Shown in pieces: positions 2,763 through 26,188 of a DNA stretch of 64,000 nucleotides. This stretch comes from Verrucomicrobiales bacterium. Its GTDB lineage: Bacteria; Verrucomicrobiota; Verrucomicrobiia; Verrucomicrobiales; DEV007. How positions within the stretch are numbered: the stretch's first letter is position 1; every line of letters begins with the position of its first letter. The notes beneath the pieces are model-generated. The model made no database searches and was not told the DNA's origin. It was given only the letters and a program-made list of their open reading frames with translations. The position numbers and the translations under genes were made by a program. The stretch covers positions 40,344 through 104,343 of the forward strand of contig JARGOD010000002.1 of the NCBI GenBank assembly GCA_029210205.1, given 5' to 3'.

Positions 2763-4523
2763 TCAACTCGCTTCCGCAGAAAGGAATGCACGCCAGCCAC
2801 CCAGTTCGGTGATGTCAGTGGAACCTTCCGGGACTGCTGATTCGCAGATGAAGCCGGTCACAATCTTTCCGCCGGCGAGAGTCAGTTTTCCAAATCCGAG
2901 TGGGCTTGGGATTCCCGCGACAAAGGAGCCGAACTGATCTGCCGGAATCGCCCAGCTTTCGACAGCGATAGAAGCGCCTTTTCCCGCTTCCTTTCGAATA
3001 AGACCGGGCCTGGGCGGAAGACCATTCTCGGGGGGCAAGGCCAGGAGCTGGTAGTCCGATGACGTCGAATCTTCACGCAGAAAGTAAGCGCCGCGATCCG
3101 TGAGTTGATGATTGAGAGGAAGGCCTCGCATGTGTGCGCCGCACACAACGACTTCGATCCAGTCGTGGGGGAGTGAGTTCTCTGAAGACTCTGCGCCTCC
3201 AAAACGGTTTGCGAGATCGAGAAGCGCGTGATCGGAAAGGGCAGGGGCGACGAGTGTGATTCCCCAGGGCATTCCTTTTGAGGCGAGCCGTCCCGCTGGA
3301 ATCGCGCAGGCGCTCAGGTCGAGGAGGTTCATGAAATTTGTATAGTAGCCGAGGTTGGAATTCAGCTGAACCGGCTCGGCCTCGACTTCGGCCGCCGTAT
3401 AGGCGGTCCCGGCGGTCGGAGTTACGATAAGATCGACAGAGGCCATCACGAGATCGGCACGGCGTTTCAATTCCTTGAGTTGATACTGTGCACGAAAGCC
3501 GTCAACCGCCCGGGGCGCGCCACCTCCGCTGATGATTTTATGCGTCACCGGAAAGAGGGACTCGGGCTGCGACGTGATAAACTCTTCGATCGCCGCGAAA
3601 CGCTCGGACACCCAGGGGCCCTCATAGAGGAGAAGGGCGGCTTCGAGAAGAGCGCTGAAATCAATGGTCACTTTGGTGCCGCCAATCGATTCCAGTTTCG
3701 TGACGGCTTCTGTGAAAAGAATTTCCGCTTCAGCATCACCAAAAAACTTGAGCTGTTCGGCCTGCGGAACACCGAAGGTGAAATTATCTGCAGGGAACCA
3801 ATTTGTCTGGCTCGGAGCACGAGAGTAGGCGTCATCTGAATCCGGTTGCGCTGCGACTGAGAAAACGGTCGCTGCGTCATCCGGGATTTTCGTGAAGATG
3901 GAAACGCAGTCCAGCGATCGACATGCCGGAACGACTCCTGCGCAGGAGAGGCTTCCGAAGGTGGGTTTGAGTCCGATCAATTCATTGAGACCCGCGGGGA
4001 TGCGGCCCGACCCTGCGGTGTCAGTACCAAGAGAGAAGGTGACGAGATCACGAGCAACGGAAACGGCTGATCCTGAGGAAGAGCCACCGGGGATGAAGTC
4101 TTCGTTGAAAGGATTCTTTGGAAAACCGTAGGGCGACCGAACCCCGACGAGACCAGTCGCGAACTGGTCGAGATTGGTTTTGCCCATGGGGATCGCACCC
4201 GCTTCGATCAGAAGAGCGACAACCGTGGCGTCTTTGTCAGGATCGTAGGCATAGTCGGGGCAAGCCGCTGTCGTGGAGTTCCCGGCCAAGTCGATATTGT
4301 CTTTGATCGCGAAGGGAATCCCGAAGAGCGGTTTGGTTTGAGACGATTCCCCCTCGAGATTCCCGAGGATGGATGCCATCCGCTCGTCGGAGGTCAGCGA
4401 GATCCAGATCAGGGGATCGGATTCGCTGATCGCGGCTTTGAGCTGATCGACGAGCTTCGCGGGTGTGAGTTCGCCGCTCGCATACTGAGCATGGAGCGCG
4501 GAGATAGAAAGATCGAGTGACAT
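2763..4523 (-). CDS. atzF: Allophanate hydrolase
   Basis: 586 residues, full length for AtzF/TrzF-type allophanate hydrolase, which splits allophanate to two ammonia and two CO2. The N-terminal amidase-signature domain (about 1-440) shows the Ser-cisSer-Lys triad regions: FAIKDNIDLAG, PGGSSSGSAVSVA and GTDTAGSGRIPAG. The C-terminal allophanate hydrolase domain (about 460-586) contains GAHMRGLPLNHQL and the LPxxFG-like end. The ATG at 4523 overlaps the stop region of the carboxylase gene upstream (TGA at 4525-4527, 1-bp gap), so the two are translationally coupled. It is the last gene of the nikR-like/DUF1989/carboxylase operon and completes nitrogen release from urea or guanidine. Confidence 0.94.
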   Translation of the reverse strand: MSLDLSISALHAQYASGELTPAKLVDQLKAAISESDPLIWISLTSDERMASILGNLEGESSQTKPLFGIPFAIKDNIDLAGNSTTAACPDYAYDPDKDATVVALLIEAGAIPMGKTNLDQFATGLVGVRSPYGFPKNPFNEDFIPGGSSSGSAVSVARDLVTFSLGTDTAGSGRIPAGLNELIGLKPTFGSLSCAGVVPACRSLDCVSIFTKIPDDAATVFSVAAQPDSDDAYSRAPSQTNWFPADNFTFGVPQAEQLKFFGDAEAEILFTEAVTKLESIGGTKVTIDFSALLEAALLLYEGPWVSERFAAIEEFITSQPESLFPVTHKIISGGGAPRAVDGFRAQYQLKELKRRADLVMASVDLIVTPTAGTAYTAAEVEAEPVQLNSNLGYYTNFMNLLDLSACAIPAGRLASKGMPWGITLVAPALSDHALLDLANRFGGAESSENSLPHDWIEVVVCGAHMRGLPLNHQLTDRGAYFLREDSTSSDYQLLALPPENGLPPRPGLIRKEAGKGASIAVESWAIPADQFGSFVAGIPSPLGFGKLTLAGGKIVTGFICESAVPEGSTDITELGGWRAFLSAEAS

Positions 4524-4524
4524 G

Positions 4525-25152: not shown

Positions 25153-25171
25153 TGAACCAACTAAAAGTGTT

Positions 25172-26188
25172 TTACTCGGCCGCCATTTCCTCGAGTACTT
25201 CGAGGGTAAGGCTTGGATCGAAATACTTGTCGATATCGAGTGCTTTCTCGTAAGCCTCGAACTCAACATTGAAATCGTCGGAGATCTTGGTTGATCCGTA
25301 AACGGAACCCAGTCCTTCTGCTTTTTCCCAAAGCGGCTTCACCTCTTCTCCGGTGAGGATGTATGTGCCGGCAAGGAATGGCTCATACTCTTCTGGAGAG
25401 ACGGAAACTCGTGAGGAAAGGATCTCAAGTGTCTCGTCAAGATTGTCTTCGTCCTTGATGAACTCGACAATTCTATACCAAACCTTGAGAACTTTCTTCC
25501 AGTCGTCGCGTCGCTTCTCGAGACTCTCAGGATCGACAAAAAGAATGTCGTAGATAATTCCTGGAGCATCTGCCGAAGTGAAGATTGGCTTAGATCCGGA
25601 GACAAGTTTGAGTGCTTCACCCGAACTTGGTTGCCATGCGGAAACCGCATCCACTGCGCCTGAGGATAGCACCTGAGGCGTCTCGTTGGTTGGCGTGTTA
25701 ACTGTGGTGATTTCATCAGGCTCCATTCCGGCCATTTCCATTCCTTTGAGAAGGAGGAGGTGTGGCACGAATCCTTCCTCTAGTCCGACTTTCATCCCCT
25801 TGAGGTCCATAAGGGACTCAATGCCCGGCTTCGCGACAATCATGTCGTTACCATTTGAGTAATCATTGATGAGAATGCCAACAGATGGCTTTCCGGTTGC
25901 CCCGGTTACCAGCGCATCGCCGTTTGTCATTCCAACCGCGTCGAGCTGTCCGGCTGCGTAGGCATCCATTGAGCCAACGTAGTCATACCATTCGAAGGAG
26001 ACCTCTACGCCCTCTTCTTCGAACCATCCTTTTTTGATGCCGACTTCGTAAGCGACCCAGCCTGGCCAGTCGCTGTAGCCGATTTTGAGCGGCTCAGCCG
26101 AAAGCGGAGCCGTGAGGAGTGCGCTGCCCGCGAGCATCGCACCAAATGTGAGGCACTTTTTACAAGTGCGTGAAACTGATTTGATCAT
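25172..26188 (-). CDS. ABC transporter substrate-binding protein 2 (NMT1/TauA type)
   Basis: 338 residues with a Sec signal peptide (basic start, hydrophobic core, cleavage near TAPLSA/EPLK). NitT/TauT-type binding domain: KIGYSDWPGWVAYEVGIKKGWFEEEG at the first strand-helix, AAGQLDAVGMTNGD, and SSGAVDAVSAWQPSSG in the second lobe. First gene of the operon that continues with permease 2, ATPase, creatininase-family hydrolase and ligase 2. Two direct repeats of GTAATACGA lie 49-79 bp upstream. The ligand cannot be named from sequence; the operon suggests a nitrogen-rich organic compound. Confidence 0.88.
   Translation of the reverse strand: MIKSVSRTCKKCLTFGAMLAGSALLTAPLSAEPLKIGYSDWPGWVAYEVGIKKGWFEEEGVEVSFEWYDYVGSMDAYAAGQLDAVGMTNGDALVTGATGKPSVGILINDYSNGNDMIVAKPGIESLMDLKGMKVGLEEGFVPHLLLLKGMEMAGMEPDEITTVNTPTNETPQVLSSGAVDAVSAWQPSSGEALKLVSGSKPIFTSADAPGIIYDILFVDPESLEKRRDDWKKVLKVWYRIVEFIKDEDNLDETLEILSSRVSVSPEEYEPFLAGTYILTGEEVKPLWEKAEGLGSVYGSTKISDDFNVEFEAYEKALDIDKYFDPSLTLEVLEEMAAE

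Follow-up and report, generated by a model that had tools for sequence, protein, structure and literature searches.

The question raised by the locus considered here is why genes for Rieske oxygenases lie within a set of genes that is predicted to convert guanidine into ammonia. The locus is an island of twenty adjoining genes in a 64-kb stretch of DNA (hereafter the window) from a Verrucomicrobiales bacterium (contig JARGOD010000002.1 of assembly GCA_029210205.1, which comprises 4.9 Mb in 195 contigs and is 86.6% complete). In an earlier note on this DNA (the original prediction), it was proposed that the upstream genes of this island import a larger compound and strip it down to guanidine or urea. 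The pairing of Rieske genes with predicted guanidine carboxylase genes is examined below in relatives, and on balance we favour the explanation that the oxygenases act on a small N-alkylguanidine taken up by the cell and thereby free guanidine, from which the rest of the island then makes ammonia.

Recurrence of the island genes in related genomes

The phylum set consisted of 387 genomes, the window's own included. The Rieske protein RieA is matched at E<=1e-20 in 10 of these, with a gap in the E values from 4e-105 to 1e-54 and 7 genomes above the gap; matches at E<1e-100 are referred to as close Rieske proteins, a cut that was chosen after the gap had been seen. UAAP2, one of the two DUF1989 proteins of the island, is found in 45 of the 387 genomes, viz. 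in all 7 with a close Rieske protein versus 38 of the 380 others (Fisher p=1.9e-7; p=1.6e-6 without the window's own genome). The co-occurrence of the Rieske and guanidine carboxylase gene sets, for which a gene-neighbourhood search had been suggested, is thus borne out. In all 6 other genomes with a close Rieske protein the Rieske gene adjoins genes for a substrate-binding protein (SBP), a permease, a xylose-isomerase-fold protein (TIM) and an FGE-like protein, and five of these genomes carry the DUF1989 and carboxylase genes inside the Rieske cluster, those of G131 being elsewhere in the genome. For the three weaker Rieske matches, no further island gene was seen within the approximately 4 kb examined, and there was no UAAP2 match.

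A scan of GTDB with the Rieske alignment A1 led from the best 80 matches to 79 loci (L023-L101). In 34 of these (L023-L056) the Rieske gene is mostly accompanied by genes for TIM, FGE and a transporter, and the retrieved stretch includes UAAP1 in 13; the hosts are mainly Verrucomicrobiota, among them the cultured Luteolibacter marinus (L037), together with two cyanobacteria and a few records labelled gammaproteobacterial. The other 45 loci (L057-L101; <=37% identical, 3.5 to 21 kb each) gave no match to TIM, FGE, carboxylase or DUF1989 at E<=1e-10. Because the module recurs in relatives while these 45 remoter Rieske loci are without its genes, the gene set is no chance neighbourhood. Five records (L028, L029, L040, L042 and L044) are metagenome-assembled genomes titled Akkermansia muciniphila or Klebsiella pneumoniae, labels that may be unreliable given the distribution of the cluster, and at L044 and L050 a RieB-like gene lies among housekeeping-looking genes with no TIM, FGE or transporter gene nearby.

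The relatives divide the island into a widespread guanidine island and an oxygenase module. The former consists of transporter 1 (SBP1-perm1-ATPase), sometimes a creatininase-like protein (Crn) and a ligase of the glutamine synthetase (GS) family, GS2, a NikR-like regulator, the two DUF1989 proteins, the carboxylase and the allophanate hydrolase. The latter consists of a Rieske protein, the TIM protein and usually an FGE-like protein, with a short-chain dehydrogenase (SDR), a CE4 hydrolase, GS1 and SBP2/perm2 as optional members. Twenty UAAP2-centred loci were taken from the 45 UAAP2 genomes; for 19 of these loci the source genome lacks a close Rieske protein. SBP1 and NikR are each present in 19 of the 20, and creatininase with GS2 in 6, of which 5 are Rieske-free. 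Due to these counts, transporter 1, NikR and sometimes Crn-GS2 are parts of the plain guanidine island, and the suggestion that the upstream genes strip a larger compound has to be narrowed, since these genes, being found also in Rieske-free islands, are not specific to such a function. When L122 is compared with L012, the oxygenase genes seem to have been inserted between the transporter and NikR. Modules without carboxylase genes nearby are seen at L023, L026, L034, L039 and L112, and in a record labelled Halioglobus the SBP1 gene accompanies the carboxylase genes (L109), the SBP2 gene the Rieske gene (L047). In quick trees, islands with and without Rieske genes are mixed, with at least 5 changes for SBP1 and at least 10 for UAAP1 (Rieske labels assigned by hand from genome scans). 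As SBP1 is present in 19 of 20 islands and the trees interleave the two kinds of islands, the additional substrate is expected to be similar to guanidine.

Replacement of the carboxylase route and the product of the module

The loci L024-L056 are covered by 31 genomes (L030 is excluded because its contig also occurs in G327, L034 and L051 come from one genome, and L023 is outside this set). UAAP2 is present in 25 of the 31. In two loci of UAAP2-free genomes, L036 and L041, a GdmH-type gene is found directly before the creatininase gene in the same cluster, where it replaces the carboxylase route. The L036 protein matches 9fek (E 2e-158) and 7esr/7oi1 (E 4e-156), the next family following at E 7e-47, and the L041 protein is 86% identical to it and occupies the equivalent place. 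We take 7esr and 7oi1, which are titled 'agmatinase 2' in the PDB, to be GdmH, a guanidine hydrolase. This enzyme is described in PMC12186494. At E<1e-150, GdmH matches are present in 3 of the 6 UAAP2-free genomes versus 0 of the 25 with UAAP2 (p=0.0044); urease alpha is found in all 3, as in many others. In L036 the gene downstream of TIM encodes a small membrane protein (PF13386) and is followed by ureABC. In both clusters (L036, 2478-15177; L041, 1787-14746) TIM is followed by such a small membrane protein, that of L041 having a similar start by eye, which is possibly a nickel permease. The window's own 86.6% complete genome gave no GdmH or urease alpha match.

As two unrelated guanidine-consuming routes stand behind one upstream module, guanidine would be their shared intermediate, and the product of the oxygenase module is most likely free guanidine and not urea. 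Of the two products named in the original prediction, guanidine is therefore retained on account of the GdmH replacement and urea is not. The carboxylase itself bears on the same point. Its Asp697 corresponds, in an alignment, to chain position 737 of 3va7, which is Asn in the fungal urea enzyme, and Asp is also present in 12 further readable relatives (13 rows with one duplicate; another three rows could not be read as they were too short). We take this to be the position, residue 1330 of the fungal enzyme, that is meant by the published Asp/Asn rule. By this rule, which concerns the carboxyltransferase active site, Asp denotes guanidine carboxylases and Asn urea carboxylases (PMC12186494). 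That the module makes urea and the carboxylase acts upon it is accordingly highly improbable: the carboxylase does pass the urea carboxylase model's cut-off and L036 does contain urease, but the DUF1989 pair is present, position 697 is Asp, and the cluster with urease also has a GdmH-type gene. On these grounds urea was rejected as the product.

The replacement within one cluster likewise bears on the possibility that the oxygenases act on unrelated N-methylated compounds (e.g. betaines) and adjoin the guanidine genes merely as common nitrogen scavenging functions. The nearest characterised Rieske families use glycine betaine and carnitine, GS2 is nearest to glutamate-methylamine ligase, stand-alone modules exist and no operator was found before perm2. 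However, with the GdmH-type gene taking the place of the carboxylase route inside the same cluster (in L036 with urease), the carboxylase genes standing beside the module in differing arrangements, and the above co-occurrence in the phylum set, we regard this explanation as improbable.

Gene content of the island

The twenty genes of the original prediction were all found on the minus strand within the span given, with the families stated (Pfam, NCBIfam), and are listed with the predicted operators in Table 1. Corrections concern three of them: the carboxylase begins at 8106 and UAAP1 at 9479 (ATG codons in both cases), and the TIM-barrel gene, although present, is the 284-aa frame 13680-14534 and not the overlapping open reading frame 13619-14488. 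The gaps between the genes range from -20 to 186 bases. The carboxylase, the DUF1989 pair and the allophanate hydrolase, all of which score above curated family cut-offs, adjoin on one strand and form a predicted operon. The island is flanked by succinyl-CoA ligase and citrate synthase genes (10-2690, plus strand) and by a housekeeping run that starts with lgt (26462, plus strand).

Table 1. Coordinates of the island, its genes and its predicted operators in the window
Feature	Position	Strand	Family matches and remarks
Island	2763-26188	-	twenty adjoining genes, named by Pfam and NCBIfam
Allophanate hydrolase (AtzF-type)	2763-4523	-	PF01425 + PF21986; TIGR02713 733 bits, cut-off 511
Predicted guanidine carboxylase (annotated urea carboxylase)	4525-8106	-	TIGR02712 1805 bits, cut-off 1304
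UAAP2 (DUF1989), carboxyguanidine deiminase subunit type	8118-8750	-	TIGR03424 328 bits, cut-off 285
UAAP1 (DUF1989), carboxyguanidine deiminase subunit type	8754-9479	-	TIGR03425 351 bits, cut-off 206
NikR-like ribbon-helix-helix regulator without usual nickel site	9575-10015	-	PF08753
Predicted operator GTAATAC-N14-GTATTAC	10063-10090		before nikR-DUF1989-carboxylase; half-sites a perfect palindrome
FGE2, FGE/SUMF1-like	10090-10761	-	PF03781
CE4, allantoinase/PuuE-like hydrolase	10758-11618	-	PF01522; 3rxz E 2e-69, PuuE 3cl6 E 4e-18
SDR	11621-12409	-	PF13561
RieA, Rieske oxygenase (module A)	12406-13662	-	PF00355 + PF00848
TIM, candidate xylose-isomerase-fold (AP_endonuc_2) metalloenzyme	13680-14534	-	homologues with PF01261
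FGE1, FGE/SUMF1-like	14543-15286	-	PF03781; nearest solved relative PvdO, E 2.5e-18
SBP2 (module A)	15306-16496	-	PF09084
perm2, ABC permease (module A)	16516-17373	-	PF00528
GS2, GS-family ligase	17560-18918	-	TIGR03105 620 bits, above cut-off 470
RieB, Rieske oxygenase	19013-20374	-	PF00355 + PF00848; 44% identity to RieA
GS1, GS-family ligase	20550-21974	-	PF00120; TIGR03105 442 bits, under cut-off 470
Crn, creatininase-family hydrolase	21977-22798	-	PF02633 E 1e-59
ABC transporter ATPase	22779-23678	-	PF00005
perm1, ABC permease	23701-25095	-	PF00528
SBP1	25172-26188	-	PF09084; TIGR03427 149.5 bits, under cut-off 334
Predicted operator	26216-26243		before SBP1, island start; one strong and one weak half-site

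Among the solved structures, the best relatives of the Rieske proteins include 4qup, titled 'Monoxygenase; demethylase', and carnitine monooxygenase. The CxH-x(n)-CxxH cluster ligands and the 2-His-1-Asp iron site are present, and in an alignment of 19 sequences C116, H118, C140, H143, H241/H242, H246 and D374, which presumably provide these ligands, are invariant. The TIM protein itself has no Pfam match, while PF01261 is found in many of its 120 homologues listed; its predicted model (pLDDT 92) resembles xylose-isomerase-fold enzymes, and the residues E134, H136, D162, H165, H191 and E243, invariant in 26 sequences, presumably represent the metal-site motifs of this fold. PvdO, the closest solved relative of FGE1, points to no clear reaction. 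GS2 is closest to glutamate-methylamine ligase (9qur, E 2.7e-114), GS1 misses the type III ligase cut-off, and Crn is under the cut-off of the creatininase equivalog model (121 of 235 bits). The creatininase-family gene and a GS-family gene are neighbours in most clusters, whichever comes first, and in Rieske-free clusters too (17560-22798 in the window, and relatives); perhaps the two act as a ligase-amidase pair on a gamma-glutamyl amide.

Elsewhere in the window there are a 1869-aa open reading frame that combines UvrA domains with several ABC ATPase segments and is apparently a UvrA of double length (40415-46024), a caspase-domain protein (PF00656) with a Cds6_C NTF2-like C-terminus (33589-35226), and a bacterial small signal recognition particle RNA (RF00169; 37737-37831).

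Substrate of the oxygenase module

The best guess for the substrate is a small N-alkylguanidine, for example methylguanidine. We prefer methylguanidine since the minimal cluster, L012, has nothing besides transporter 1, FGE, TIM, Rieske and the guanidine genes. Further, a single Rieske protein of the RieA/RieB family is present in 25 of 32 genomes, and therefore one oxygenation appears to be enough. In a set of 41 Rieske loci, from which L030 and L105 are left out as duplicates, the TIM gene is present in 32 (33 counting L017), and SDR and CE4 are each present in 15.

In relatives' loci SDR and CE4 often come after RieB, and this arrangement favours a different explanation, in which the guanidine freed by the Rieske module would stem from a guanidino compound that is larger or cyclic (e.g. 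creatinine, creatine or guanidinoacetate). RieB would hydroxylate the CH2 beside a guanidine nitrogen, SDR, CE4 and the creatininase-like protein would process the ring and the acid part, and the products would be guanidine or methylguanidine plus glyoxylate or oxalate, with RieA then demethylating the methylguanidine. The relationship of CE4 to PuuE allantoinase and of Crn to creatininase, the presence of both Rieske types in the window, and a 2-hydroxyacid dehydrogenase gene between FGE and TIM in G240 are consistent with this. However, Crn occurs with GS2 in guanidine islands without a close Rieske protein (5 of 19 loci), SDR and CE4 are found in just the 15 loci noted above, and most genomes have the single Rieske protein; we consider this explanation rather unlikely, and the two-step creatinine route, once the main hypothesis, was demoted to a rival on the basis of the Rieske and Crn counts. 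In G240 (L102, 658-2501) there are two extra genes between FGE1 and TIM: one, without an NCBIfam match, is by eye like a periplasmic binding protein, and the other is the dehydrogenase just mentioned, a relative of glyoxylate reductases.

Regulation of the island

The ligands by which NikR binds nickel are His76, His87, His89 and Cys95 (PMC7055735). The corresponding residues of the window's regulator are R, H, L and T, i.e. three of the four are replaced, and Cys95 is kept in none of 40 regulator rows. As four rows from Rieske-free islands (L117, L118, L124 and L127) retain all three His with Tyr for Cys, the loss of nickel ligands seems to have been stepwise, and some of these regulators might still bind metal.

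An inverted-repeat search upstream of SBP1 found nothing, and in the window alone the counts of consensus patterns were not above chance (3 vs 1.74 expected; 1 vs 0.46 expected); the case for operators is accordingly based on a matrix from relatives and on position. Among de novo palindromes upstream of SBP1, GTATGA-N16-TCATAC and its one-base shift rank at the top (12 of 51 upstreams, duplicates included), with any palindrome reaching at most 3 in five shuffles. With the matrix, which was trained on SBP1 upstreams, the site at 10063-10090 is the top match in the 64 kb (23.2 bits), and that at 26216-26243 is second (16.6 bits), where three shuffled windows peak at 10.0-13.1 bits; a third site (60100, 11.4 bits) is inside the shuffled range. 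Matches of >=10 bits are present upstream of SBP1 in 34/51, NikR in 32/40 (three of these upstreams, L114, L115 and L133, overlap training regions, and L030 repeats L012), UAAP1 in 5/47 and RieB in 3/31 cases, but of FGE1 in 0/24, RieA in 0/18 and perm2 in 0/17. The predicted operators fit the 28-bp palindromic GTATGA/GTGTTAC type of NikR operators (PMC7055735, PMC545781). A shared regulator is thus predicted for both predicted promoters of the window; as no operator was found in front of perm2, stand-alone modules may be regulated independently. In G411, whose Rieske cluster has a strong operator, an SMR gene (L049, 4847-5164) lies between SBP1 and FGE1; the best model of this gene is SugE (75 of 126 bits, below the cut-off), which is only suggestive of guanidine export. 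Control by a guanidine riboswitch was rejected, as neither the window nor the loci of 7 relatives gave a match that reaches the Rfam gathering score.

Proposed pathway

The gene content, the recurrent linkage, the GdmH-type replacement (once with urease), the loss of nickel ligands and the operator-like sites are direct observations, and they may be read together as follows. SBP1/perm1/ATPase, here together with SBP2/perm2, would import guanidine and the alkylguanidine. RieA or RieB would hydroxylate the carbon beside a guanidine nitrogen, and TIM, a candidate metalloenzyme, would accelerate the cleavage of the hemiaminal so formed to guanidine and an aldehyde, as MgdL does in Vreelandella, with the FGE-like protein helping in some way. 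The carboxylase, DUF1989 pair and allophanate hydrolase, judged by their families, would turn guanidine into ammonia and CO2. The NikR paralogue, which would be unable to bind nickel in the normal manner, would sense guanidine or another island metabolite and control both promoters. More specifically, though only tentatively, we suggest that a Rieske N-dealkylase and a xylose-isomerase-fold hemiaminal lyase, acting on methylguanidine and its relatives, plug into either guanidine route, viz. the carboxylase, or a Ni-dependent hydrolase with urease, and are controlled by a NikR paralogue that now responds to guanidine in place of nickel.

A number of observations weigh against the release of guanidine from a small N-alkylguanidine. 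FGE is missing at 11 of the 41 Rieske loci. Of the 31 genomes, 6 have a Rieske locus without UAAP2, and three of these, G394 (Tolypothrix), G400 and G411, are without a strong GdmH match as well. Weaker arginase-family matches are found in two UAAP2 genomes, G409 and G412 (E 1e-36 and 4e-50). There is no Rieske reductase gene in the island and the 86.6% complete genome has only two weak FAD_binding_6 matches; no dedicated formaldehyde-removal gene was recognised by family scans among the 20 genes. To these may be added the lack of an operator before perm2, and the carboxylases of L055 and L056, in which Cys replaces the Asp. The gene order in these two loci is TIM, carboxylase, allophanate hydrolase, UAAP1 and UAAP2, with NikR not found nearby, and the substrate of their carboxylase is possibly different. 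Lastly, SDR, CE4, GS1 and the second Rieske protein hint that more than methylguanidine is handled, and it is plausible that these, along with Crn, serve a second, larger substrate.

Comparison with known systems and significance

The closest known system is the methylguanidine operon of Vreelandella boliviensis, in which MgdH and MgdL free guanidine by hydroxylation and lyase action, together with a guanidine carboxylase (PMC12508155), although its oxygenase is of a different class. The two share the guanidine carboxylase, deiminase pair, allophanate hydrolase, an ABC importer, and an oxygenase with a second guanidine-freeing enzyme. By the descriptions of MgdH and MgdL, the Vreelandella operon has a 2-oxoglutarate dioxygenase, a beta-barrel lyase with an Asp/Arg pair, and guanidine riboswitches, whereas the island has Rieske, xylose-isomerase-fold and FGE-like proteins and a NikR-like regulator; its candidate second enzyme is a TIM barrel in the predicted model, and no 2-oxoglutarate oxygenase family was matched in the 20 island proteins (Pfam, E<=0.001). 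By analogy, we infer the same logic with other enzymes, the Rieske protein hydroxylating and TIM cleaving the hemiaminal.

All four proteins of the guanidine carboxylase pathway (Gca/CgdAB/AtzF) are present with the Asp signature, but here this pathway is extended by the oxygenase module and a second importer, and a protein regulator is predicted instead of a riboswitch. The GdmH plus urease route is shared insofar as the GdmH-type gene stands with the same Rieske module in L036 and L041. With the Rieske N-demethylases and their relatives (stachydrine demethylase, carnitine monooxygenase CntA and glycine betaine GbcA) the island proteins share domain order, iron ligands and sequence similarity; we take 3vca and 4qup to be stachydrine demethylase. 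The island Rieske protein differs from GbcA in scoring 146 of 670 bits, far under the family cut-off, and in having no adjoining reductase gene. In arylamine pathways, glutamylation by a GS-like ligase reportedly precedes the Rieske dioxygenase. A GS-like ligase gene and Rieske genes are likewise found together there (PMC11335346), whereas in the island family GS is optional and also found without Rieske.

A full-text literature search, which left most subscription journals outside, turned up no description of a Rieske-based guanidine-releasing pathway and no paper linking carboxyguanidine and NikR. Judging by titles and the beginnings of abstracts, no such pathway is the subject of PMC11446756 and PMC12342949, which mention 'guanidine carboxylase' and 'Rieske', or of PMC3210991, which mentions 'Rieske' and 'methylguanidine'. 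Homarine catabolism was dropped as a known parallel, as no such pathway turned up among the 15 of 68 matching papers that were listed.

The natural origin of free guanidine has yet to be settled (PMC12186494), and only a small number of enzymes that release guanidine have been described (PMC12508155). If the explanation favoured here is correct, Rieske oxygenases would join the classes of such enzymes and an unusual nitrogen source would be opened to these bacteria. Verrucomicrobiota would be added as a lineage, along with scattered records labelled cyanobacterial and gammaproteobacterial, the TIM-barrel family would gain a function, and a protein-based guanidine regulator would stand beside the riboswitches.

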